The position numbers and the translations under genes are program-made. From assembly GCF_019320115.1 (NCBI RefSeq), contig NC_089593.1, positions 8,867,022 to 8,931,021 of the forward strand: a stretch of 64,000 nucleotides of DNA. The letters are read 5' to 3'. How positions within the stretch are numbered: the first letter of the stretch is position 1; every line of letters begins with the position of its first letter. The notes under the pieces were generated by a model. That model was not told where the DNA came from and ran no database searches. It saw nothing but the letters and a program-made list of their open reading frames with translations. Of this stretch, positions 47,001 to 64,000 are shown in pieces. Source of the stretch: Miscanthus floridulus (lineage: Eukaryota; Streptophyta; Magnoliopsida; Poales; Poaceae).

Positions 47001-47993
47001 AGCCCAACCAAGAGAAATCTCAAGATCAACAAGTGCAAGTGTTGTTCTATTGAAATGATCTTCACCAGTTGATGCCAATTGGAATGCATGCCCATATCTC
47101 ATAATATCATCTAGGTGGTGCAATTTGGATTGAATTAATGTAGCATACCCATGAGAAACTCATTCTCAGCAAGAGACTACACAAATTCACTAGAAGAAAC
47201 GGTTAGTCTTAAAAGACACAAGGCATAGGATGGGCTCCCCCTTAATATGTGCATCAAGTGCTTGAATTACTTGTGAAATGCACTAGAATCGGTTTAAGAG
47301 TCGAGGGGAGTTCATCCTATATCTTGGTCAAGGCATTATAATTTTGCAACAACTAAAATTATGCCAAGGAAACATACCACCACCAAGGTAGATAGATCAC
47401 CACACATATTTTCATCGATATGACCATCATAAGTTAGACTTCAATGATTTGGATGGCTATAGTTCACTCTTGATGAAATGTGGTGAATTAAAGATTTTGT
47501 GATCATCCAAGATCTATATTAGTTTCCTAGTTCTTTCTTTACCTAAAGCAACTCACACAGAGAGCAAAGGTAAAATTCATAAAATTTGTAAGTTATGAAC
47601 TAGGAGTTACCACTCTTTGTTGATAAGATCCTGGGAGATCAATGGGATGGATCATAGGTACTTGATGAGCACTTAGAGAAGAGAAATAGCAATGAAAGCC
47701 CACTCTTCAATTATTTTCTCCATCTCATCCAAATCTAGGTCCATTTAAAGGATTGTGATATTCAACATTTAAACCAGGACCACTTGGTTTGTAAAGACCA
47801 AGACCTCCTAGAATAATTGTGAAACACCTAGAGAATCCAAAGGAACTACCCATCCTTCTTTTTCCATGTGTGGGACTGCACATCAAACACTTGAAAGAAA
47901 CCAATAATCCCACAAGATATAGGCCGAGCTCCCCCTAAATTTGTGCATACAAGAGTACACAAAGTTCACTTAAGCACATTAACAATATGAGGT
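44093..47993 (-). mobile_element. SIRE/Maximus-like copia fragment: truncated 3' LTR plus internal region
   Basis: 44,093-45,275 is an LTR fragment nearly identical to the inner solo LTR. At 45,276-45,290, read on the minus strand, a polypurine tract (caaaaagggggagat) abuts the LTR start TGTAAG, so this is the 3' end of a minus-strand element. The rest (45,291-47,993) is non-coding internal sequence; I find no pol remnant. It stops at the complete Del element. Confidence 0.7.
45276..45290 (-). other. Polypurine tract of the copia fragment
   Basis: Minus-strand reading is caaaaagggggagat directly next to the LTR start, the normal place for second-strand priming. Confidence 0.7.
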
Positions 47994-50900
47994 TGTAACA
48001 GAACCGACCAATTATAAGAAATTAAGTAAGAAAATCATCCGCCAGGGCAGACGATTTAGCAAACTTAAGCCCGTATAACCCGGTAGTCCATGAAATCGCG
48101 AAGGATTTCAAACTAACTTCCATTCCAGCCAAGATCGTAATAAGTTTAGCGGTCACCATCACATATTACATAAAAGTTCACAATCTCAGATACATCAGAG
48201 TTTCAACATAGTTATTACAAACCAGTTCGAATAAAAGTAGCGGAAGTCATTTGTTCAAACCACACACACACTCACGCGGAGTTTAAATATAGTGCCAGCG
48301 AATGATCATCTCCAACAAAAGCATCAGATGAGACGTAAGGAATGACCATGCCCATGGTCCTAAGCATCACCCATCGCAGGATAAAGGCAGTTGATACAGT
48401 AGCCGTAATACATCTGCCCATCTGCAACAAGTGGGAATAAAACCCTGAGTACGAGAAGGTACTCAGCTAGACTTACCCGACATAACCGAAAATAAATGAC
48501 ACCAAGGATTATGAAGGGCTTTATAGTAGGGTAGCTGACTCATTTGCAAAAAGAAGCATTTTTAGCATTTCAAGAACCTTTCGAAAAGCATTATTGCCAA
48601 GTTAATTATTATTAACCTGTCGACTAGATTTGCACCTATACTAGAGTAAACATGTGATTAAGCAGATAATGATAACCAATGATCATTAAACAACTTCCAT
48701 ACTGTCATATTCATTATAACTGTCCAAGTGTTCCATAACATTTACTACGATGAAGTAACTCAAGTCAAGTGCTCACTATCCAGGAGCGATGGCGATTCGA
48801 ATCGATTCCTAACCAGCTGGTGATTTATTCCTTACACAAACCTCACTCACCCGCTAAAGTGAGATATTGATCACCGAGTCAACTTTCCAGGAATCTCGAG
48901 TTTGCCAGGAACCACATGTACCCGGGGGCCGACCGACTGCACTTTGGTCTTATCATCCCGCCCCCGTGTCCTACCACACCTGCTTCGGCACAGTGCGTTG
49001 CGGGCAATCTACTCGGCCCGAAAAATCTCCCAGCTTCGCGGTCGGAAGGTACTTTATCCGGCCAGCTAAATGTAAGGCATGCGTTCAACATGACTCGAGG
49101 CCCAACAACGGTCGGTCCTTAATCGACACAGACGGAAACACTACAGTCCAAAACTCTGCAAGTCTCCGTCCGGTCTCAACTTCATTTAACACTTAGTTAT
49201 ACCATGACTTCATAGTCATCCAAGCAGATCCAGGTAACCACCTATAGCTCGCAGGTGACAGGAAATCACCCGACTTCTACCGGTCTAAGCCAGCTAAGCA
49301 TTGACTCGACTGCGGATACCAGGGTAACAAGGATATAGTATAACAAAGGTAAACAAGGTATAATGCAGCAACGGTTGCAAACAACTCCTGAACGTAATGC
49401 ATCAATTAAAGTAAAGCATTTAATTAAATAATTGCAAACCGGGAGAAAAATGCTCCGGGGCTTGCCTCTCTCGAAGGAGCTCGGACGGTGATCGGGGCAC
49501 TCCGGAAGTTCCTCAACGTCCTCCTCGTCGGCTTCTGGCACTTCCTGCGGCTGCACCTCGAACTGCTCCTCGGGCTCCTCGGGTATGACGACTGGGTTCT
49601 CGGTTTGCGATCCTGTATGATGCAATGCGCGTAAGTGATTATGCAAACGGTGCATCGAAGGAGATGAATGCAATGGATATGTTTAAATGCAAGGTAGTCA
49701 ACATCATCCAAGAAACTATACTACAAGCACATGTCATCTACTGCATTCTCTTCTACTACTAATATGTTTAAGTCAACATATCTTATGAAATGCCTCAAAG
49801 ATACACCAAAGCTATTATTATTAACTAACCTTGTATTAAAGAGGATTATTTTATTTCCTTTTTAATTAGGGCTACAACAGCAATCTCTATTTCTGGTGCT
49901 TATAAAAATCTGAGAAAATTACAGTAGCATGGTACTACTCTAAGTAGACTACCATCAGATTTTCATGATATTTGAATGAGTGGATTAGCCTACACAAAAA
50001 TCACAAACTATGGCATGATTTTGTACATGAAAATACTTTGAACTGTGAAAAGTGTCAAACAACAGAATTAATATTTTTCCTAGGTTCTTCATAGCATACA
50101 ATGACTGTACAAAAATTATCACATGCATGTTTTATACAAAGTTTGCTCTCTAGCAAAAATAACAAAAATCAGCCATTAAAGGTACTTGAACAACACCTCA
50201 AAATTTTCCCACAGCACATGCATGAAACATATTTTTCCTAGGAAGTACATGACATAAGAAGATTAACAAACTTGGAATCATATTTTTCTGAAGACTATAG
50301 ATTTTTCTACATATTTTTCAAGTTATCAGCAATATACATGATTAAATAAAATCCTACAGAAAAGTATCCCAAAAATGACATGCAATAATTTTCCCAAGTA
50401 GATCTGATGATAAGGAACCTAGCAAAATTTGTTTCAACAAATTTGGAGCAAATTTGAGTACCCAAACATTTTTCAAACCATTTCAGATTTCAAATAATAA
50501 AGAATAAATGAAAAACAATTCATTTAAACGATACTGGGCCAGCCCGCTGGAAATCAGCTGGCCCACGGCCGTTTTCGGCCTGCGCGGCCCGAGCGCAGGG
50601 GAGGGGAGGACGGCCCAGCAGGGCGTCAGCCCACTCCGCTCGGCCTGGCTGGCCCGGCTCGCTGGCTGAGGCATAGGCCTCGCCGGTGTTCGCGCTGGCG
50701 CGGCGGCGTGGCTCGGCCACGAGGCTGGCGGCCATCTCCGGCCACGGCAGGGCGAGCTGGCGAGCGCACGGGATGCGCGAGAAGACGGCGAGCACGGTAG
50801 GGTAGCTAGGCGAGGCTGGAGAAGAGAAGGAAGACGGCTTCCATGGCGGCCGAGCACGGCGGCGTCATGGCCGTCGGTGGCGAGGCTCGGGGAGGCTCAA

Positions 50901-51914
50901 CCTGTGCTCGGAAGGCAGCGCAAGCGCGAGCGCGACTTGAAGGAGGGTGAGGCGGAGTTGCAGGCGCGTGATTGCCGGTCGAGGTGAGGAAGCCGCGGCG
51001 AATTGCGCCGGCGGGTGCGTGGCGCGGCGAGCGGCAGAGCTTGGGGCTCTCGGCTCTGGCGGGGAGGAGAGGCAGCGCGGGCGGGAGTGAGCGAGCGCAC
51101 GGGCACCAGCAGGTGAAGGCGGGCGCGGGGTCAAACCGCGGCTGCCACACAGCGGGCGACGCCGGCACATGGTCGCCACGCGGCGGGAGTTCTCTGCCGC
51201 GGTCGGCGCGTGGACGAGCGGGCCAGCAGGGGAACGGCGCGGGCTGGGCCGAGGCGAGCGCAGCGCGGGATGGCGTGAGCAGGCCGGCGCGCGAGGTGGG
51301 CCGACGCGCGCGGGCGGGTTCGCTGGCGCGCTGGGCCGGCTTCGGCAGGCGGGCCAGAAGCGAGGCGGCGGCCCGCGAAGGAGAAAAATCCTTTTCCAAA
51401 TAAAATTTTCAAGGAATTTTTAATTGCCATCTTTCAAATATTATTTTGAACAAGAAAATGACATCTTTTGAAAATGTACCAAAAATGAAAGTTGTTTAGA
51501 ATTTAATTCTCTACAACTTTGCTTTTATGACCAAAGCCAAATTCTTTCTAGATTTTGAATTGTAACATCAAAGTCCACGTTTAGCTCAAAACCCTAATTT
51601 TTGGAATTTATTTTTGAAGCCAAATTTTGAATTAATTTGAATACAAACATTGCTCCAAAAATTGAACTAAACATTGCTAGATGATTTACAATAGTAGCCA
51701 AACATGTTTTACTAACCTAGCAAGAAAAATTCAGGGCAAAACAATTCTTAAACAGGTGTATGCAACATTCAGGTTTCACGCATGTTTCAGATGTTTCAAA
51801 GCAATGTTTCAATTGTTATTCACATGATTAAGCATGTATGATTTGGATGCTTGATGATGCATGATATGCGTGATTTGCAGTGCCTAAATGCAGGCATAAC
51901 ACCGGGGTGTTACA
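47994..51914 (-). repeat. 3' LTR of the Del/Tekay element (3,921 bp)
   Basis: Read on the element's strand it starts TGTAACACCCCGGTGTTA and ends GGTTCTGTTACA. A GC-rich section lies at about 50,520-51,390. The exon-like block is at 49,466-49,612. Confidence 0.95.
49466..49612 (-). other. Conserved exon-like block in the 3' LTR
   Basis: On the minus strand: acceptor-like catacag|gatcg and a GC-type donor gagag|gcaag. 147 nt, phase 1 to 1, encoding an acidic stretch that starts GSQTENPVVIPEEPEEQ and ends ELPECPDHRPSSFERG. Confidence 0.6.
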
Positions 51915-52122
51915 GCCCTCCCCCCTTATAAAAATCTCGTCCCGAGATTTGGGTTACGAACCATTTGTTATAAAATTCTTCATAAGCTTTTTGTAGATAC
52001 TCTCCTGTTTCCCAAGTTGCATCTCCCTCATCATGATGATCCCACTGTATCTTGTATGTTTTCACCACACTATTCCGAGTAGCACGTTCCTTAGTGTCTA
52101 ACACCTCGGACTGGTTGCTCAC
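51910..52122 (-). CDS. Chromodomain end of the Del/Tekay polyprotein
   Basis: The fragment carries VVKTYKIQWDHHDEGDATWE and YLQKAYEEFYNKW, the folded part of a chromovirus integrase chromodomain, which in this group is thought to guide integration to heterochromatin. The frame reads through the polypurine tract (Lys-Gly-Gly-Gly) and its stop TAA lies inside the first five bases of the 3' LTR. It is in a different frame from the integrase upstream, so it is detached in this copy. Confidence 0.8.
   Translation of the reverse strand: MSNQSEVLDTKERATRNSVVKTYKIQWDHHDEGDATWETGEYLQKAYEEFYNKWFVTQISGRDFYKGGGL
51916..51927 (-). other. Polypurine tract of the Del/Tekay element
   Basis: Minus-strand reading AAGGGGGGAGGG, one base from the 3' LTR start. 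Confidence 0.85.
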
Positions 52123-53297
52123 GATACACCAAATCTGATTTGAGTTGAATACCTCGAGGTTCTATTCTTTCCTCCGGAACACGCAAACATTTCTTGAGAT
52201 GTGATACATGGAAAACTAGGGAAAACGGTACTCATTGTCTCAGGTAACTCTAACTTGTAGGCTACCGGACCTCTTTGTTCCAAGATCTTGTATGGTCCTA
52301 CGAATCTCGCGGCAAGCTTTCTTCGGATTCCAAACCTTTTCTTCTTCATTGGCGTGACTTTCAGATAAACATAGTCACCAACTTCAAATGCAAGGGGTCT
52401 CCTTCTTTTGTCTGCATAGCTTTTCTGACGTGATTGGGCAGCTTTCATATTCTGCTGAATAATATGAACTTTCTTCTCGGCTTCTTCTACAAAGTCAATG
52501 CCATAATACCTTCTATCACCAGGCTCGACCCAATTCAATGGTGTTCTACATTTTCTGCCATATAAAGCTTCGAATGGGGCCATCTTGATGCTTTCTTGAT
52601 AACTATTATTATAAGAAAACTCAGCTAACGGTAACCATGACTCCCATGATCCCTTAGAAGACAATACACAGGCTCTTAACATATCTTCCAAAACAGCATT
52701 CACTCGTTCAGTCTGACCATCTGTCTGAGGATGATAAGCGGTACTGCGAATCAAACTAGTTCCTAAGCCTTTGTGTAAATGTTCCCAAAAGTGAGCCGTG
52801 AACTGTGAGCCTCTATCAGATACTATGGTCTTTGGTATACCATGCAACCTCACAATTTCTGCGATATACTTCTCGGCATATTGAGGTGGTCGATAATCTG
52901 TTTTGACCGGCAAGAAATGAGCGGTCTTGGTAAGACGATCCACAATTACCCAAATCGAATCATGTCCTTTTTGAGTAGTGGGCAAACCCGTGATAAAATC
53001 CATACTGATATCGTCCCACTTCCAACTAGGGACTGATAAGGGTTGCAACATACCGGCAGGTTTCATGTGAATGGCTTTCACTCGACAACATGTGTCACAT
53101 CTGACAACATATGCTGTAATTTCTTTCTTCATTTTGGTCCACCAATAGCGAGATCTTAGTTCTTGATACATCTTACTACTTCCGGGATGGATAGATAGCT
53201 TAGAAAGGTGAGCTTCATCCATGAGTTTATTCCTAAGCTCTCGATCCTTGGGAACCACAAGACGGTTGTCAAACCACAACACGCCCTGTTCATCCAC
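52119..53297 (-). CDS. Retrotransposon integrase
   Basis: A 392-codon frame with the zinc-binding H-H-C-C segment (HLSKLSIHPGSS, then CDTCCRVK), the catalytic core (Asp in MDFITGLP, Asp in VSDRGSQFT, Glu in TDGQTERVN) and a GPYKILEQRGPVAYKLELP module near the C-terminus. The frame leaves the expected sequence near 52,210, where a short insertion appears to shift it, and ends in unrelated residues. It is also out of frame with the reverse transcriptase upstream. Confidence 0.9.
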   Translation of the reverse strand: MDEQGVLWFDNRLVVPKDRELRNKLMDEAHLSKLSIHPGSSKMYQELRSRYWWTKMKKEITAYVVRCDTCCRVKAIHMKPAGMLQPLSVPSWKWDDISMDFITGLPTTQKGHDSIWVIVDRLTKTAHFLPVKTDYRPPQYAEKYIAEIVRLHGIPKTIVSDRGSQFTAHFWEHLHKGLGTSLIRSTAYHPQTDGQTERVNAVLEDMLRACVLSSKGSWESWLPLAEFSYNNSYQESIKMAPFEALYGRKCRTPLNWVEPGDRRYYGIDFVEEAEKKVHIIQQNMKAAQSRQKSYADKRRRPLAFEVGDYVYLKVTPMKKKRFGIRRKLAARFVGPYKILEQRGPVAYKLELPETMSTVFPSFPCITSQEMFACSGGKNRTSRYSTQIRFGVS

Positions 53298-53355: not shown

Positions 53356-54812
53356 TCAGGTTTTCTGGCCTTCTATTATCTTACTCTCCAAAGAGCAACT
53401 AATCTGAATACTATGTAACACAGCAGGATGCATTAGATCGAACCCATCTTCAAGTAATGGCTGCACATTCAAGTAATGTGACTTTCTGCTCAAAGCATCT
53501 GCCACTACATTGGCTTTTCCAGGATGATATTGCACATTCAAGTTGTAATCCTTGATCAATTCCAACCATCTGCGCTGTCTCATGTTTAGCTCTGGTTGGG
53601 TAAAGATATACTTAAGACTCTTGTGATCCGTGAAAATATTGCACACATTACCAAGTAGATAATGTCTCCAAATTTTTAGGGCGTGCACAACTGCAGCAAG
53701 TTCAAGATCATGTGTTGGATAGTTGACCTCGTGCTTTCTCAATTGTCGTGATGCATAAGCAATGACTCTCCTTTCTTGCATAAGAACACAGCCCAATCCA
53801 GTCTTCGATGCGTCGCAAAACACATCAAATGGTTTCTCGATATCTGGTTGTGCTAGAACAGGAGCAGTGGTCAACAGTTTCCGCAAAGTGTGGAAAGCTA
53901 CTTCACACTCCTCTGTCCATACAAACTTGTGATCCTTCTGTAGGAGACTCGTCATCGGTTTGGCAATCTTTGAGAAATCTGGTATAAAGCGACGGTAATA
54001 ACCCGCTAGTCCTAAGAAACTTCTAATCTCAGGAACTGTGGTCGGTGCTTTCCAATTCATAACTTCTTGCACCTTACTTGGATCGACTGAAACTCCATTC
54101 TCTGACAGAATGTGACCAAGGAAAGGAACTTCCTTCAACCAGAATTCGCATTTGCTAAACTTAGCATACAATTGATGATCTCTAAGTCTGGTCAAGACAG
54201 TTCTCAGATGCTCTTCATGATCTTTCTCGTTCTCGGAGTACACCAGAATGTCATCGATGAACACTACCACAAATTTATCCAATTCTGGCATGAAAACTGT
54301 ATTTATCAGAAACATAAAGTATGCAGGAGCATTTGTCAAGCCAAAAGACATGACAAGATACTCATACAACCCGTATCTGGTGGAAAATGCAGTTTTCGGT
54401 ATATCCTGTGGCCTAATCTTGATCTGATGATAACCGGATCTCAAATCTATTTTTGAGAACACCTTGGCCTTGGATAATTGGTCAAACAGAACATCAATAT
54501 GTGGCAAGGGATATTTATTCTTAATGGTCACAGCATTGAGTGGCCTATAATCTACGCACATTCTCAACGTGCCCTCTTTCTTCTTTTTCACAAATAAGGC
54601 GGGACATCCCATTCAGACTTGCTTGGCCGAATAAACCCCTTTTTTGACAAATCTTCTAATTGCTTCTTCAGCTCAGCTAACTCATCTGGAGGCATCCGAT
54701 AGGGTCTCCTTGAAATCGGAGCTGTTCCGGGGACTAGCTCAATTCCAAACTCAATCTCCCTATCTAGGCGGAAGACCAGGTAGCTCATCCGGGAATACAT
54801 CCGGAAATTCAC
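53356..54812 (-). CDS. Retrotransposon reverse transcriptase and RNase H (frameshifted)
   Basis: Two overlapping frames: 54,812-54,588 carries the N-terminal part ([19 protein letters not shown]) and 54,612-53,356 carries the rest, with [20 protein letters not shown], the FIDDILVYS catalytic box, [20 protein letters not shown] and the RNase H motif [13 protein letters not shown]. The switch near 54,610 is a one-base frame change. The second frame stops at 53,356, where a homopolymer-length change detaches integrase. Confidence 0.9.
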
Positions 54813-55368
54813 ACACTACCGGAATCTGATGAATAGGAATGACTGCCGTAGCACATGTAACACTTATAAGGTCTGTTCTTCGAGGCAATGGTACTTGGAA
54901 AGTACCCTCACCTAGGGGATCCTTAAGGGTAAGTACTCGACTTCCAGTATCTATGACTGCTCCCCAATCCTTCATCCAATTCATCCCTATAATGACATCC
55001 AAGACTAACCCAGGCATAACTATCAAGTTCACTCGGAACTTCCTGCTACCTAATTCAAGGGTTGCCCCTCGAACCATCCGGTTGGTCAAAACATCAGCCC
55101 CTGCTGAACTTATACGGTACCCATAACCCAATTCTGTGCATAGTTGTCCATGTTTCTGTGCAAATGCTTGACTCATAAAAGAATGCGATGATCCAGAATC
55201 AAATAGAACAACTGCAGGGTTTTCGTTGATAGGAAACTTACCAGCAGTGACGGGCTCTCCCTCTGGAATTTCATCCACTGTTGTACTATGCACTCTAGCA
55301 TTATAAGTCTGCTGCTTCTTCTTGGGCGGGTACTGGACAAAACCTCGAGAAATGACCGGGTTGATCAC
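54760..55368 (-). CDS. Retrotransposon aspartic protease region
   Basis: Carries [18 protein letters not shown] (active-site DSG), [20 protein letters not shown] and a C-terminal [13 protein letters not shown] linker into reverse transcriptase. A CCHC zinc knuckle lies just upstream in another frame (about 55,320-55,365), so the gag-protease junction is frameshifted. Confidence 0.85.
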
Positions 55369-55370
55369 AG

Positions 55371-56445
55371 TTATAGCAGGGTCCTCTTCACTGTCCCGGC
55401 AGATCCCACAGCTCCCTTGGAACTGCCTTGTACCGCAGTTGCGGCTGCTTTGTTGGGCTGTACTGCCATCTTGTACGGCTTTTGAGGTCCACGGAAATTC
55501 TGACTTCTTGGCTGAGGTGGCCTGAATCTAGCGCCAGGTGCCGATGGGCGATATGGAGGACGACCTCCCATAGGTGCTCTAGCTTGAGACGGCCCACCTT
55601 CAAAGGCTCTCTTGCGTGTCTTGGCTGCGGTGCTGGCGTTGTTATTCTTCTCCTGCTTCAGACAGTCGCTGATGAAGTCATTGAATCTGACGCGGTTGTT
55701 GGTACCAACATGCTTCATCATTTTTGGATTGAGACCCCTCTTAAAACTGGCTATTCTTTTAGCATCTGTGTCAACCATGTCGGGAGCATAGCGACACAAG
55801 TTGTTGAAGGCATGCAGGTATTGCGTCACGGTCTTGGTGCCCTGGTTCAATGCCAGAAACTCTCCCAACTTCATTCTCGGTCAGCCCGGGTGGAATATAG
55901 ACTCCACGGAAGGCCTCAGCAAACTCTCTCCAAGAAATCTGAGCATTTGGAGGGAAGGTGGTGCGATGGTGCTTCCACCACATTCCCGCCGGTCCTTGCA
56001 ATTGAAGTGCAGCATACTCCGTTTTTAGAACCTCAGTCATCCTCAACACACGGAATTTATCTTCCATCGTGTTGATCCATTCCTCAGCATCGAGTGGCTC
56101 TGTTGCTTCCTTGAATACTGGCGGCCTGGTGTCCATGAAATCTTTGAAGCTGCTATATTGGTTCACTCCCATGCCACCACCTTGATTGTTACCACGTTGA
56201 ACGTTGTTGGCGATGGTGCGCAGAAAATCCTCCATGTTCTTCTGGGATTGTTCCGCGTTGCGCTGACTCCCGAGCAGCTGTGCGAGGAACATCTCGGGGG
56301 TAAACGGGGGAGGAGGTGGCAAATGTGGTTCATGGGGAGGTTCATTGTTGTTGCCGTGGTTTCCACCACCACCACCGGTCCCCGCACCGTTAGCACCGGG
56401 CTCAGCGGCCTCATACGTGGTTCGGCGAGTGTTTGTCATCTGCAT
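55371..56445 (-). CDS. Retrotransposon gag (frameshifted)
   Basis: 56,445-55,771 gives the N-terminus (MQMTNTRRTTYE, Gly/Asn and Pro-rich linkers) and the gag domain (DAEEWINTMEDKFRVL, WWKHHRTTF, ISWREFAEAFRGVYIP). 55,874-55,371 continues it in another frame (EFLALNQGTKTVTQYLHAF, KRIASFKRGLNPKMM and a basic Gln/Pro-rich tail). The switch is near 55,870. Gag packages the RNA in cytoplasmic particles. Confidence 0.88.
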
Positions 56446-56840: not shown

Positions 56841-57797
56841 TCACCAGTCGCCTCCAGGTGAAACTACAGGCTCGTCCTGGTTGTCGTCGTCGATGTCCAT
56901 GCCAGCGGCGTTCGGTGGAGCATATGGGCCAACCCCATTGTAGAGCGCGTGAAACTCCTCGTGCAGGTTGCCGTTGTATTCCTCTAGCTCATCGACCCTC
57001 TGCAGCAGAAGGTTTCTTGCGTTCCAGGCTTCATTCCTTTCCTGAACCAGCTGTCCAATCATGCGGTCTGCATTGTTGTTGGCTTGAGTCAACGTATGCA
57101 CTCGCTGCATAGCTCTATCACCTCTCTCAACCGCCTGATCTCGCTGTAAGTTCATATCAGCCAACTGCTCCTGCAAGCTAGCTATAGCACGTGCCTGTCT
57201 CTTCTTCTGCTTCTTCCCTTTTAGCTTATCCTCACTACGCAAGCCCGTCAAAGTCCAGTAGGTACTCTCGAGACCTTCATACGCTCTGATGGCGGCGAAC
57301 ATAGCACTCATTGCCTGGTTGTCGCTAGCCTGTCCTTCAGCTGGACCTCTGACCAATGCACTTCCCTGAGGCTGAACCCAAATGGCATCACGAGGATCAT
57401 CCCTAGGAAAAGTACCAGCTAGAGCTGCTGCAAGCTCACTGGGAAATCTGCTCATAATGTCCCTGATGACACGGAAGGCTGCTCCCTCTGCACCCTCAGC
57501 TGGAGTGCGACCCTCAAACTCCAAATGCCAACCATCCCAATCTGGAGCATCACCGAGAGCAGGAACCGTGATCTCCACCACTGCGAGTCCATCCTCTGCT
57601 AACTGGCTCTCATTCCAAGAGTACACCGGCTCTTGACCCTCTGGGTACCCCACATCATGGAGCACTCTCCAAAGCAAAGTTGGCATGCCAAACTCGCTCA
57701 AGAAGGTGTCCGTGGTGCGGTGCTCCCTCAGGGCCAACGGACGTCGAGGTGCTCTTCCTCCGGTGGACTTACGGGCGGTCTGCTTCGTGCGGGCCAT
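56841..57797 (-). CDS. Extra retrotransposon ORF with histone H3 tail-like N-terminus, 318 aa
   Basis: Same strand as gag-pol, between the 5' LTR and gag. From ATG 57,797 it starts M-ARTKQTARKSTGG-RAPRRPLA: after Met removal residues 1-13 equal histone H3, including Arg2, Lys4, Arg8, Lys9 and Ser10; Lys14 and Lys18 become Arg and Gln19 becomes Pro (18 of 21 identical). No histone fold follows. Residues about 25-170 are an unrecognised mixed region (MPTLLWRVLHDVGYPEG, DWDGWHLEFEGR); about 200-212 is a basic, NLS-like KLKGKKQKKRQAR; about 213-290 is a predicted coiled coil (SLQEQLADMNLQRDQ); the C-terminus is acidic (MDIDDDNQDEP). An upstream in-frame ATG at 57,860 would add 21 residues, but a splice-acceptor-like gctacag sits directly before ATG 57,797. 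The frame is intact while gag-pol is not. Function unknown; chromatin mimicry is inference. Confidence 0.88.
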   Translation of the reverse strand: MARTKQTARKSTGGRAPRRPLALREHRTTDTFLSEFGMPTLLWRVLHDVGYPEGQEPVYSWNESQLAEDGLAVVEITVPALGDAPDWDGWHLEFEGRTPAEGAEGAAFRVIRDIMSRFPSELAAALAGTFPRDDPRDAIWVQPQGSALVRGPAEGQASDNQAMSAMFAAIRAYEGLESTYWTLTGLRSEDKLKGKKQKKRQARAIASLQEQLADMNLQRDQAVERGDRAMQRVHTLTQANNNADRMIGQLVQERNEAWNARNLLLQRVDELEEYNGNLHEEFHALYNGVGPYAPPNAAGMDIDDDNQDEPVVSPGGDW

Positions 57798-58567
57798 CTG
57801 TAGCAAAAGTTCTTTTATTACCTCGGGGAAACATATTTTAGGTGATACAACTTTTATCAAAAGGAGATAATCAATTTATAAGGGGAGGAATGCATGACAT
57901 GAATGAAATGCATAAGTAACATGATGTATGTACGTGCCGTACGTTCTCACAAACTTAGGAAATAAATAATTTCTAACGACGAATTCGGTGGCATACAACG
58001 ATCTCTCAATACGTAGCTAATACGTTCTACACGATATCGTTGTTATGTACCTGCAGAAGATTCATTTCAGCCCAATTCCCAATGAATGCATAAAAGCAGT
58101 AAAGTTTTATCTACACGCTCTACACGAATCCCCAGATACGTGTACAACGGTAGTAACTACCCGAACCATCGTCCTATTGACGGCATCGCCTCAACAGACG
58201 GAAGACCCATACATGAGATACCTTTGTAAAACATGCGTAGAACATGTAATTACTCCAGCATCATATAAGCATTCACCCTAGATCGGCGGTGTATCCGATC
58301 ATGCTCTCACAACTCACACTTACCGACGCGTAGAGGCAAATGATCCATTCATTACCACTCAAACAAGTGGCACTCATACAATAGCACGCCGTATGAGCGA
58401 CGAAAGAGAAATATGATGCAAGAACCCCAGTCAGTACTTAATTAAGCCACCTAAAGTCCTTAACTGGGCATAAAGGATATGATCACTGGCACACTTTATA
58501 GTTTTAAAATCACGTTTTCCAAATGCCTTTTTGTTTTAAATACACTTGTGAACAGTAACACGCTAAA

Positions 58568-58583
58568 CCATGCTCTGATGCCA
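58568..58583 (-). other. Primer-binding site, initiator tRNA-Met type
   Basis: Minus-strand TGGCATCAGAGCATGG, two bases inside the 5' LTR, close to the TGGTATCAGAGC complement of plant initiator tRNA-Met. Confidence 0.85.
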
Positions 58584-58585
58584 GC

Positions 58586-61500
58586 TGTAACAGAACCGAC
58601 CAATTATACGAAATTAAGTAAGAAAATCATCCGCCAGAGCAGACGATTTAGCAAACTTAAGCCCGTATAACCCGGTAGTCCGTGAAATCACGAAGGATTT
58701 CAAACCAACTTCCATTCCAGCCAAGATCGTAATAAGTTTAGCGGTCACCATCACATATTACATAAAAGTTCACAATCTCAGATACATCAGAGTTTCAACA
58801 TAGTTATTACAAACCAGTTCGAATAAAAGTAGCGGAAGTCATTTGTTCAAACCACACACACACTCACGCGGAGTTTAAATATAGTGCCAGCGAATGATCA
58901 TCTCCAACAAAAGCATCAGATGAGACGTAAGGAATGACCATGCCCATGGTCCTAAGCATCACCCATCGCAGGATAAAGGCAGTTGATACAGTAGCCGTAA
59001 TACATCTGCCCATCTGCAACAAGTGGGAATAAAACCCTGAGTACGAGAAGGTACTCAGCTAGACTTACCCGACATAACCGAAAATAAATGACACCAAGGA
59101 TTATGAAGGGCTTTATAGTAGGGTAGCTGACTCATTTGCAAAAAGAAGCATTTTTAGCATTTCAAGAACTTTTCGAAAAGCATTATTGCCAAGTTAATTA
59201 TTATTAACCTGTCGACTAGATTTGCACCTATACTAGAGTAAACATGTGATTAAGCAGATAATGATAACCAATGATCATTAAACAACTTCCATACTGTCAT
59301 ATTCATTATAACTGTCCAAGTGTTCCATAACATTTACTACGATGAAGTAACTCAAGTCAAGTGCTCACTATCCAGGAGCGATGGCGATTCGAATCGATTC
59401 CTAACCAGCTGGTGATTTATTCCTTACACAAACCTCACTCACCCGCTAAAGTGAGATATTGATCACCGAGTCAACTTTCCAGGAATCTCGAGTTTGCCAG
59501 GAACCACATGTACCCGGGGGCCGACCGACTGCACTTTGGTCTTATCATCCCGCCCCCGTGTCCTACCACACCTGCTCCGGCACAGTGCGTTGCGGGCAAT
59601 CTACTCGGCCCGAAAAATCTCCCAGCTTCGCGGTCGGAAGGTACTTTATCCGGCCAGCTAAATGTAAGGCATGCGTTCAACATGACTCGAGGCCCAACAA
59701 CGGTCGGTCCTTAATCGACACAGACGGAAAACACTACAGTCCAAAACTCTGCAAGTCTCCGTCCGGTCTCAACTTCATTTAACACTTAGTTATACCATGA
59801 CTTCATAGTCATCCAAGCAGATCCAGGTAACCACCTATAGCTCGCAGGTGACAGGAAATCACCCTGACTTCTACCGGTCTAAGCCAGCTAAGCATTGACT
59901 CGACTGCGGATACCAGGGTAACAAGGATATAGTATAACAAAGGTAAACAAGGTATAATGCAGCAACGGTTGCAAACAACTCCTGAACGTAATGCATCAAT
60001 TTAAAGTAAAGTATTTAATTAAATCATTGCAAACCGGGAGAAAAATGCTCCGGGGCTTGCCTCTCTCGAAGGAGCTCGGACGGTGATCGGGGCACTCCGG
60101 AAGTTCCTCAACGTCCTCCTCGTCGGCTTCTGGCACTTCCTGCGGCTGCACCTCGAACTGCTCCTCGGGCTCCTCGGGTATGACGACTGGGTTCTCGGTT
60201 TGCGATCCTGTATGATGCAATGCGCGTAAGTGATTATGCAAACGGTGCATCGAAGGAGATGAATGCAATGGATATGTTTAAATGCAAGGTAGTCAACATC
60301 ATCCAAGAAACTTATACTACAAGCACATGTCATCTACTGCATTCTGTTCTACTACTAATATGTTAAGTCAACATATCTTATGAAATGCCTCAAAGATACA
60401 CCAAAGCTATTATTATTAACTAACCTTGTATTAAAGAGGATTATTTTATTTCCTTTTTAATTAGGGCTACAACAGCAATCTCTATTTTTGGTGCTTATAA
60501 AAATCTGAGAAAATTACAGTAGCATGGTACTACTCTAAGTAGACTACCATCAGATTTTCATGATATTTGAATGAGTGGATTAGCCTACACAAAAATCACA
60601 AGCTATGGCATGATTTTGTACATAAAAATACTTTGAACTGTGAAAAGTGTCAAACAACAGAATTAATATTTTTCCTAGGTTCTTCATAGCATACAATGAC
60701 TGTACAAAAATTATCACATGCATGTTTTATACAAAGTTTGCTCTCTAGCAAAAATAACAAAAATCAGCCATTAAAGGTACTTGAACTACACCTCAAAATT
60801 TTCCCACAGCACATGCATGAAACATATTTTTCCTAGGAAGTACATGACATAAGAAGATTAACAAACTTGAAATCATATTTTTCTGCAGACTATAGATTTT
60901 TCTACATATTTTTCAAGTTATCAGCAATATCCATGATTAAATAAAATCCTACAGAAAAGTATCCCAAAAATGACATGCAATAATTTTCCCAAGTAGATCT
61001 GATGATAAGGAACCTAGCAAAATTTGTTTCAACAAATTTGGAGCAAATTTGAGCACCCAAACATTTTTCAAACCATTTCAGATTTCAAATAATAAAGAAT
61101 AAATGAAAACAATTCATTTAAGCAATACTGGGCCGGCCCGTGGGGAACAGCTGGCCCATGGCCACTTCTGGCCCGCGCGGTCCGAGCGAAAAGGGAGCGC
61201 GGCGGCCTGGCAGGGCGCCAGCCCACTGCCGCTCGGCCTGGCTGGCCCGGCTGGCTGGCTGAGGAAGAGGCCTCGCCGGTGTGCGCGCTGGCGCGGCGGC
61301 GCGGCTCGGCCACGAGGCCGACGGCCATCTCCGGCCACGGCAGGGCGAGCTGGCGAGCGCACGGGATGTGCGAGGAGAAGGCGAGTGCGGTAGGGTGGCT
61401 AGGCGAGGCTGGAGAAGAGAAGGAAGACGGCTTCCATGGTGGCCGAGCACGGCGGCGCCATGGCCGTCGGTGGCGAGGCGCGGGGAGGCTCGACCTGTGC

Positions 61501-62513
61501 TCGGAAGGCGGCGCAAGCGCGAGCGCGACTTGAAGGAGGGCGAGGTGGAGTTGCAGGCCACGTGATTGCCGGTCGAGGTGAGGAAGCCGCGGCGAATTGC
61601 GCCGGCGGGTGCGTGGCGCGGCGAGCGACAGAGCTTGGGGCTCTCGGCTCTGGCGGGAGGAGAGGCAGCGCGGGCGGGAGTGAGCGAGCGCACGGGCACC
61701 AGCAGGTGAAGGCGAGCGCGTGGGCACGGGTTAGACCGCGGCTGCCGCGCGGCGGGCGACGCCGGCACATGGTCGCCACGCGGCGGGAGTTCTCTGCCGC
61801 GGTCGGCGCGTGGACGAGCGGCCAGCAGGGGAACGGCGCGGGGCTGGGCCGAGGCGAGCGCAGCGTGGGATGGCATGAGCAGGCCGGCGCGCGAGGTGGG
61901 CCGACGCGCGCGGCGGGTTCGCTGGCGCGCTGGGCCGGCTTCGGCAGGCGGCCAGAAGCGAGGGCGGCGGCCCGCGAAGGAGAAAAATCCTTTTCCAAAT
62001 AAAATTTTCAAGGAATTTTTAAATGCCATCTTTCAAATATTATTTTGAGCAAGAAAATGACCTCTTTTGAAAATGTACCAAAAATGAAAGTTGTTTAGAA
62101 TTTAATTCTCTACAACTTTGCTTTTATGACCAAAGCCAAATTCTTTCTAGATTTTGAATTGTAACATCAAAGTCCACGTTTAGCTCAAAACCCTAATTTT
62201 TGGAATTTATTTTTGAAGCCAAATTTTGAATTAATTTGAATACAAACATTGCTCCAAAAATTGAACTAAACATTGCTAGATGATTTACAATAGTAGCCAA
62301 ACATGTTTTACTAACCTAGCAAGAAAAATTCAGGGCAAAACAATTCTTAAACAGGTGTATGCAACATTCAGGTTTCACGCATGTTTCAGATGTTTCAAAG
62401 CAATGTTTCAATTGTTATTCACATGATTAAGCATGTATGATTTGGATGCTTGATGATGCATGATATGCGTGATTTGCAGTGCCTAAATGCAGGCATAACA
62501 CCGGGGTGTTACA
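58586..62513 (-). repeat. 5' LTR of the Del/Tekay element (3,928 bp)
   Basis: Nearly identical to the 3' LTR over its whole length, same TG...CA ends. Differences are scattered substitutions and short indels, densest in the GC-rich section (about 61,130-61,980). The exon-like block is at 60,061-60,207. Confidence 0.95.
60061..60207 (-). other. Conserved exon-like block in the 5' LTR
   Basis: Identical in layout to the 3' LTR copy: 147 nt, acceptor-like cag|gatcg and donor-like ag|gcaag. In the 5' LTR it would lie in the element's transcript leader if transcription starts upstream in the LTR. Confidence 0.6.
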
Positions 62514-64000
62514 AGTGCCACATAATCAGGGACAACCAGCTGCCAGGACGATTAGGATTACCCTGCCCTTGGGCTCAAGGTTGGCTCCCTACACATTCTT
62601 ACTATCATCCAGAGTACGCACTTTTACAAAATGAGGCCTGATCTGAGTTGGGCTACTCGGCTTCATGGTCGAAACAAGTTATCCGGACAACTAAGTGATA
62701 GGCAAGCGTTCAATCTTGTCAGAAGTGCCAACAACGGTATGATCCTTAATTGGCATAGACGGAATCATATGAGTCAACCTACACATAGACTCCATTCAGT
62801 TTCCATTTATATTACCCCATGGTTCTTTTCCACGATAGCAAATATAGCCAACCGTGCCTCGGTATCCACCTATATCTCGCAGGTGACAGGAAATCACCCG
62901 ACTTCTACCGATCTAAGCATGGCTAAGCATATATTCAATTATGTACCTACATAGAGTTAAAGGTATATGTATCTGGACAAGGTAGTTCTATGCATCAAGT
63001 GTTTCCAATCAACTCTTATAACCTAATGCATCAACCATAAAGGACTCAAGTAGTATTTTGTAAAACATGGAAGACTTAGAATGCTCCGAGGCTTACCTTT
63101 GAGGAAAGAGGTAGGTCGATGATCCGGACACTCAGGGAGCTCTTCGGGGGTCTGCTCCTCTTCTCCTAGAGCTACGGCTTGAGGAGTCTCCTGCTGACTC
63201 TCCTTCTCTTCATCGTTGAATTCCAACAACGTTATCTCTTTGGACGATCCTATATGCATGAGGATGAAATAAGATATCACGAATGCATATATGATGACAC
63301 ATGTAATATGATATAACGTCATGAATGCATCCCTATAAGTATTTTCAATAGCATGGTATTAAAGTAGTAATAAGTGCATCTTATTTTATTGAGCAGGTGC
63401 ATACCTCTTCTCTATTACTTAAGCAAACACTTCTGTAATCAATTTATCGGACTACAAGACAGCAGCTAATTGTTTTGATCATAACTGGAGTTATATACAT
63501 CAAAATAATATGGTTGTGGATATTCTAGAAAGATTTTAAAATTGTCTACAACTTTCTTTTAATACTCTTAATGTGATTCAACAGTTATCAAGGTCAAACA
63601 ATTCAATTATTCAAACCTGTCCAGAAAGTAAACATTTCGTACAGCAAACTTCTAACAACCAAAACTCTTAAACCCTAAGGCCTTTGACTATAAAAATTTA
63701 ACACAAGATAGATCAGTAAGTTATCTATAACTTTATTATTAACAAGTTTTACAGAAAAGACAATTATCAACACGAAATTATCAGCTCAACCGAAACTATA
63801 CATGCAACCATCTATTTGATTTATAAAGCAACAATTAATTAGTTGCATACAACCAATTGCTTCTAAGCCTTACTACTAACCTCAACAGTTCATATGTATC
63901 ACAAGCACCATAGAAAACATCAAGGTCAAGCACACTTTATTTATTTACATGCATTTATTAATTTAATTAGATAATTAAGGGAAATAACAAATGTGCACCA
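62514..64000 (-). mobile_element. Diverged Del-type LTR, minus strand, truncated by window and neighbour
   Basis: Between about 62,515 and 63,260 it is recognisably related to the complete element's LTR (tcgcaggtgacaggaaatca, cacccgacttctaccg, and ccaacaacggt...ccttaat order) but clearly older. It carries the exon-like block at 63,097-63,249. Beyond 63,300 the sequence is AT-rich with no gene. Confidence 0.65.
63097..63249 (-). other. Conserved exon-like block in the right-hand diverged LTR
   Basis: Minus strand: acceptor-like atatag|gatcg and a full GT donor aaag|gtaagc. 153 nt, phase 1 to 1; the peptide starts GSSKEITLLEFNDEEKE and ends ELPECPDHRPTSFLKG. Confidence 0.6.

Follow-up and report, generated by a model that had tools for sequence, protein, structure and literature searches.

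The stretch of DNA analysed here, hereafter the window, comprises 64,000 nucleotides of Miscanthus floridulus (contig NC_089593.1 of assembly GCF_019320115.1, positions 8,867,022 to 8,931,021). It was found to carry on its minus strand a long terminal repeat (LTR) retrotransposon of the Tekay/Del type with an accessory open reading frame (ORF) of 318 codons upstream of gag, here termed ORF0 (56841..57797), which appears in the ORF list, has homologues and recurs in at least 40 close genomic copies. ORF0 sits between the primer-binding site and gag (the latter running from 56445 downwards), and the translation from its ATG at 57797 starts MARTKQTARKSTGGRAPRRPLALRE / ARTKQTARKSTGGRAPRRPLA. Codons 2–22 (57732..57794, minus strand) correspond to residues 1–21 of histone H3 (ARTKQTARKSTGG...) with 18 of 21 residues identical, the differences being K14R, K18R and Q19P.

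A phmmer search against PDB chains gave 132 matches up to E 10, of which the best 60 were all H3 or H3 variants (best E 3e-05), and among the matches listed those of ORF0 were confined to query residues 1–30. That 13 residues in a row, starting at the initiator methionine, should match by chance is not credible. The H3-like start and the change of Lys14 and Lys18 to arginine, both proposed in the first-pass annotation of this DNA, are borne out by these data, with Q19P as a further difference. No in-frame ATG lies upstream of the tail in the window, and all 14 copies viewed in the tail frame have an upstream stop (in one locus, L050, a further ATG lies six codons upstream of the tail); if translated from the ORF0 ATG, the tail would therefore be N-terminal. 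Proteins starting with Met-Ala lose the methionine, and from this established excision we infer that the mature protein begins at Ala1, as H3 does. The tail itself is predicted to be disordered and exposed.

Behind the tail no histone fold was found. No histone-fold Pfam model was reported for ORF0 up to E 10, and the Pfam matches of ORF0 proteins were weak, below cut-off and mostly within the coil. The remainder was instead predicted to hold the fold of a double-stranded RNA-binding domain (dsRBD; residues 36–120, 57438..57692, minus strand) in which the RNA-binding lysines are absent, and a long helix or coiled coil (residues 159–288, 56934..57323, minus strand; confident from about residue 190), after which comes an acidic end. 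The earlier description of this part as non-histone, with a coiled coil and an acidic end, agrees with these results, and the region that had been called unrecognised has a recognisable predicted fold, namely the dsRBD. The frame, described as intact, is open for all 318 codons, but its last residues are out of register with the family: 12 of 40 close copies continue to 329 codons and have a longer acidic end, and in the other 27 the frame is broken before that point.

Copies and relatives of ORF0

In the host genome (2.68 Gb) 40 window-like copies were scored out of 1411 candidates (98–100% identity; subfamily B). With the window's own copy included, the ATG is kept in 40/40 and the first 24 residues are identical in 26/40. 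As a second genome query we used P0018, a divergent ORF0 protein that starts ARRRLTAHKSTGGRVPRHQLA and is 42% identical to window ORF0. Of 12,811 candidates, 123 places were scored, with alignments starting at query residues 1–4. Thirty fetched loci define three more subfamilies (24 loci in C, four in D and two in E), which are 43–50% identical to window ORF0 over the match and have the tail in common (for example MARTKQTARKSTGGRAPRHQLAPRT in C and MARTKVTARKSTGGRVP in E). Of 38 long loci, 35 have a match to the window gag downstream of ORF0 on the same strand, and three have none. The H3-like start therefore recurs in other family members, as the three further subfamilies and the 40 close copies with their ATG demonstrate.

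Possible relatives that are more distant were found among proteins. A fragment in the protein collection, P0041, matches H3 at 19 of 21 positions at its start. P0048, from Aristida adscensionis (a grass of the Aristidoideae), P0071 and P0063 have the same H3-like start, with a coiled coil and an acidic end by eye; compared with the window, their tails are identical at 18/21 positions and their remainders at 21–26% (26% for P0048). Against shuffled sequences the remainders scored z 3.4 (P0048), 5.4 (P0071) and 1.6 (P0063), so that by alignment relatedness behind the tail appears weak for P0048 and fair for P0071, and is not shown for P0063. A pattern search of viral contigs matched one stretch and yielded no relative.

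A second dispersed family (L086–L088; at least 122 places) was also observed in the host genome, with ORFs of roughly 300 residues, many of them without stops, which are distantly related to P0071 (21–30% over its middle part). Its members start MAGAWVSTY or MAEEDWTTSY and have no H3 tail, and in L087 CTTTGCCTTGCAG stands immediately 5' of the ATG. No match to the window gag was found in the stretches fetched around this family.

Selection on the H3-like tail

Codon differences were counted on the 12 of 40 B copies that are in frame to residue 329 and on all 24, four and two fetched loci of C, D and E, stops being skipped; L014 stands for the window in this part. The leader comparison used one B sequence and 5/24 C, 3/4 D and 2/2 E sequences. 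Compared between the four subfamilies, the tail diverges by 0.09–0.22 at codon positions 1+2 and by 0.37–0.52 at position 3, the body diverges by 0.21–0.39 and 0.44–0.62, respectively, and the noncoding leader upstream of ORF0 shows p-distances of 0.16–0.23. Position 3 of the tail is thus near that of the body, with positions 1+2 much lower, which argues for selection on the protein. By the Nei-Gojobori proportions of nonsynonymous (pN) and synonymous (pS) differences, the B–C comparison gave a tail pN of 0.105 and pS of 0.543 (body 0.352 and 0.751), with 0/234 body windows as low in pN, and the B–D comparison gave 0.135 and 0.632 (body 0.334 and 0.757), with 1/230 as low. Between B and E, 7/234 body windows were as low in pN.

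Other comparisons weigh against this interpretation. The tail is unexceptional between C and D (48/230 body windows), C and E (23/234) and D and E (69/230), and in D–E its pN/pS exceeds that of the body. Without CpG transitions the corresponding counts are 31/230, 23/234 and 61/230, and the tail pN/pS lies above that of the body in C–E and D–E; subfamily D is represented by four and E by two old copies, whose arginine codons show CpG decay. Protein-level selection on the tail is therefore clear for subfamily B against two others, but not in every pair, and the check for neutral decay that had been proposed in the first-pass annotation is answered in part: the tail codons are held at the protein level between subfamilies, though not in all pairs.

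The copies without a frameshift number 42, of which 12 belong to B, 24 to C, four to D and two to E; in these, Lys4, Lys9, Ser10, Gly13, Leu20 and Ala21 are kept in all. Position 14 is arginine in 41/42, and lysine is found in 0/42 both at position 18 (mostly His or Arg) and at position 23 (mostly Arg). P0048, P0071 and P0063 likewise have Arg14 and are without Lys18 and Lys23. In H3, Lys14, Lys18 and Lys23 are mainly acetylation sites, and Lys4 and Lys9 are methylation sites; judged by its residues, the ORF0 tail looks like a methylatable, acetylation-poor H3 tail. Against this stand the slow mutation of lysine codons under CpG decay, the P0018/P0040 lineage, which has RRL at T3-K4-Q5 (P0018 also has His for Arg8), and a variable Gln5 in D and E.

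A predicted dsRNA-binding-domain fold

The ORF0 model shows the alpha-beta-beta-beta-alpha arrangement of a dsRBD. In structure comparison protein-binding dsRBDs were top-scoring, with RNA-binding ones tied; those of RNase III were within one Z unit. The protein-binding dsRBDs with PDB matches were TRBP dsRBD3, Loquacious dsRBD3, DRB7.2 and Staufen dsRBD5, with which ORF0 has its predicted fold in common; we take these domains to be protein-binding, and the lysines of the KKxAK motif at the start of helix 2 to be those that bind RNA. ORF0 resembles them in being without KKxAK-type lysines, its helix 2 starting by eye with GRTPAEGAEGAAF, GRTAEEAADRAAF and GRTPEEAASRAAF in different proteins, and P0018 having a single lysine there (GRTPKEGAGKAAY). 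It is unlike them in sequence, being only 11–15% identical to the TRBP, Loquacious, DRB7.2 and Staufen domains in the listed alignments. A Pfam search with seven ORF0 proteins returned no dsRBD model up to E 10, a result in which HMMER filters may have dropped weak matches.

Origin of the tail

The tail most likely goes back to the first coding segment of an H3 gene of the host. It was probably captured once and then passed on, since the lineages share the derived R14, R or H at 18, R23 and often P22. R14 by itself is a weak sign of common capture, as it is also found in the unrelated H3-tailed proteins P0049, P0050, P0062, P0065 and P0067; the query that returned these proteins itself bore R14 and so favoured arginine at this position. 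Codon usage did not single out a donor gene: compared with eight host H3 genes, the window tail has the same codon at only 6–12 of 19 shared residues (methionine included).

In two intron-bearing host H3 genes, L079 and L080, an intron-like end (...TTAATGCAG / TTAATTAATGCAG) abuts the ATG. This arrangement is reminiscent of the TTGCTACAG before the ORF0 ATG and is no proof of origin. H3-tail starts were also seen on unrelated proteins (P0047, P0049, P0050, P0062 and P0065), some of them from named fungi: two have F-box Pfam matches (Xylaria P0049 and Podospora P0065), one is from Talaromyces (P0062, with its relative P0050), and an Armillaria protein has repeated H3-like motifs.

Proposed function and alternative explanations

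LTR retrotransposons predominate in large plant genomes, where they must pass a barrier of H3K9me2 and RNA-directed DNA methylation, and the latter couples H3-tail reading with the production of small interfering RNA (siRNA). ORF0 multimers would present many H3 tails with a methylatable Lys4/Lys9 context and without the acetylatable Lys14, Lys18 and Lys23. Such tails could act as a decoy for those host writers or readers of the H3 tail that belong to the H3K9me/RNA-directed DNA methylation pathway. Dicer-like or DRB proteins, also of this pathway, may be bound by the dsRBD, and silencing of the element would be delayed. A decoy role is favoured because both recognisable ORF0 modules resemble partners of this pathway. 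The anatomy of the protein and the selection on it, taken alone, are held with considerable confidence. The whole explanation, in which a captured and selected multimeric H3-tail mimic with dsRBD and coil delays silencing as a decoy, is the best found and is put forward tentatively, as somewhat less than an even chance. More doubtful again is its widest form, which we consider rather unlikely: a grass lineage, older than the Aristida split if inheritance was vertical, would combine an H3 mimic (the acetylation-only K14, K18 and K23 replaced, K4 and K9 kept) with a Dicer-partner-like dsRBD and a coil, and would disarm RNA-directed DNA methylation at its siRNA side and at its H3-reading and H3K9-methylating side together.

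Reading of the tail by the element's own chromodomain was set aside as a leading explanation. The first-pass annotation had linked the two, and that link is weakened by the chromodomain fragment being of the Tekay/group II type, which is described in the available text of two reports as being without the methyl-lysine aromatic cage (PMC12786077, PMC3350952); self-reading is therefore unlikely.

Nuclear import or tethering is a serious rival, even if on balance unlikely. Multimers would here bring gag/integrase or cDNA into the nucleus via H3-tail-binding importins, or hold them on chromatin via H3-tail readers, and silencing would not be impeded. We take H3 tails to be importin cargo, the basic charge is mostly retained at positions 14 and 23 (Arg), and a coiled coil with an acidic end would suit a scaffold. 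Another tether could also help an element whose chromodomain type lacks the canonical cage, as the available text of PMC12786077 describes it. However, the uncharged T6, S10, T11 and G13 are conserved at least as well as the arginines and would be needless in a simple import signal, and the dsRBD is left unexplained. That the tail is a basic flexible arm of a structural co-gag protein, serves to bind RNA or to assemble particles and resembles H3 by ancestry only, would fit the arm itself, the coiled coil, the sense position beside gag and a leader as strongly conserved as packaging signals are; it is improbable given the uncharged residues and their order, kept across lineages that are 21–26% identical elsewhere, and a dsRBD that by eye has no RNA-binding lysines.

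Two further explanations would deny the tail a role as a protein. Constraint on DNA or RNA, or recombination with the leader, could be read from the conservation of the adjacent leader (p-distance 0.16–0.23) and from a tail pS below the body pS in 6/6 pairs, but tail third positions differ by 0.37–0.52, far above the leader and close to the body, by which this explanation is already largely refuted and very improbable. The notion of a captured H3 exon in neutral decay, seen early, draws on the likely capture origin and on the 14/40 B copies that deviate from the commonest first 24 residues, and decay is indeed seen in individual old copies; for the whole lineage it is already refuted, the tail being common to lineages with strongly diverged synonymous sites and to a protein of a different grass, and it retains hardly any credibility.

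Relation to known ORF0 and to other systems

An "ORF0" upstream of gag-pol has been described in rice Retrosat2, FRetro3, RIRE3 and RIRE8, with homologues in ZMsat2 (maize), Sorsat2 (sorghum) and Brasat2 (Brachypodium) (Gao et al., 2012, PMC3485330). According to the available text of that report it was not found outside grasses, evolves faster than ORF1 and was given proposed enzyme functions from homology models. By position and description the window ORF corresponds to the ORF0 of this Retrosat2/RIRE3 group: in both, an extra sense ORF lies upstream of gag-pol, here between the 5' LTR and gag, in an element with LTRs of more than 3 kb (PMC3485330). The word "histone" is absent from the main text of that report, and likewise from the available text of PMC7264820, PMC13317346 and PMC3726574. 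No description of an H3 tail in a retrotransposon ORF was found among the open-licence literature matches listed, a scope outside which subscription papers fall, including the original RIRE3/RIRE8 report. The novelty suspected in the first-pass annotation thus holds for the tail, which appears undescribed, but not for an extra ORF at this place, which was already known (PMC3485330). Both the mimicry of H3 and the predicted dsRBD fold seem to be new.

Influenza NS1 has an H3-like tail, a short C-terminal mimic in an RNA virus. ORF0 is like it in being a parasite protein that imitates the H3 tail, and unlike it in that the mimic is N-terminal, extends over 21 residues from Ala1 and belongs to a plant retrotransposon. 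The VANC proteins of Arabidopsis VANDAL elements are accessory transposon proteins that counter host epigenetic silencing, which for ORF0 is only proposed; they bind noncoding regions of their own elements, and neither an H3 tail nor a dsRBD is mentioned in the available text (PMC10398659). A fungal hAT transposon with a captured histone H3 also joins a mobile element to host H3 sequence; there a DNA transposon multiplied the H3 gene, and repeat-induced point mutation inactivated the copies (PMC6710886, available text). In ORF0, unlike this case, the tail alone is kept, fused to another protein, under selection and in an LTR retrotransposon.

The accessory proteins of plant LTR retrotransposons are mostly without an assigned function, and ORF0 has been an orphan since its description in rice. 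Two concrete kinds of partner are now suggested by its H3 tail and its predicted dsRBD. If the decoy mechanism is true, ORF0 would be a histone mimic that a transposon encodes and directs against silencing. Should its role be import or tethering only, histone mimicry would still have been put to a new use, in an H3 tail that is nearly complete, under selection and carried by the protein of a mobile element.

Leader and possible expression

The ORF0 ATG is abutted by the 3'-splice-site-like TTGCTACAG (57798..57806, minus strand), which is exact in 34/42 copies and conserved between subfamilies, the bases further upstream being variable among copies. A 5'-splice-site-like GTAAGT (58318..58323, minus strand) starts 526 nt 5' of the window's ATG and recurs within the same surrounding sequence in 33/38 long loci, and a conserved TATA-like block, CCTCCCCTTATAAATTGATTATCTC (57864..57888, minus strand), lies about 70–90 nt before the ATG. 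These signals suggest a possible intron in the leader, with its end at the ATG, or else an internal promoter; either would place ORF0 first on its message. A search of the genome for spliced copies gave no match to the predicted junction (33-letter IUPAC pattern, up to three mismatches), which is a weak negative as the search was without a positive control.

The leader (57807–58567 in the window, and those of C, D and E) was also observed to contain long invariant blocks and to exceed the ORF0 body in conservation between subfamilies, and it may hold packaging or other RNA signals.

Architecture and age of the element

By its gag-protease-reverse transcriptase-RNase H-integrase order and a group II chromodomain with Tekay motifs the host element is a Tekay/Del LTR retrotransposon, an assignment that rests on domains in broken frames and a Chromo match below cut-off. 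All features lie on the minus strand. The primer-binding-site-like TGGCATCAGAGCATGG (58568..58583), whose tRNA assignment is an assumption of ours, adjoins the 5' LTR. Gag occupies two frames (55371..56445, Retrotrans_gag in both pieces), followed by domain matches to aspartic protease (54760..55368) and to reverse transcriptase and RNase H (53356..54612), by integrase (52119..53297; H2C2, weak rve and a Tf2-1-like SH3) and by the Tekay-type chromodomain fragment (51955..52104), which is out of frame with integrase. The fragment matched Pfam Chromo at E 0.0012 and 19.2 bits, under the cut-off of 25.1, and its translation by eye (ERATRNS...IQW...DATWETGE) is near the Tekay motifs quoted in the available text of PMC3350952. 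The gag-pol region is broken into several frames, in agreement with the shifts noted earlier.

The 5' LTR (58586..62513, ends TGTAACACC...TTACA) and the 3' LTR (47994..51914, from comparison of the pair) are 3.9 kb each and 97.6% identical (Kimura two-parameter distance 0.019), which at a presumed rate of 1.3e-8 per site per year puts insertion at about 0.7 million years ago. This age carries a caveat because no 5-bp target-site duplication was found at the LTR flanks (47981–47993 against 62514–62525: GCACT and ACCTC), although both LTR ends are complete; with such mismatched flanks recombination between elements is possible. Within each LTR a stretch of about 1 kb (50483–51399 and 61068–62029) was also observed to hold overlapping ORFs of 100–300 codons on both strands and to be GC-rich by eye.
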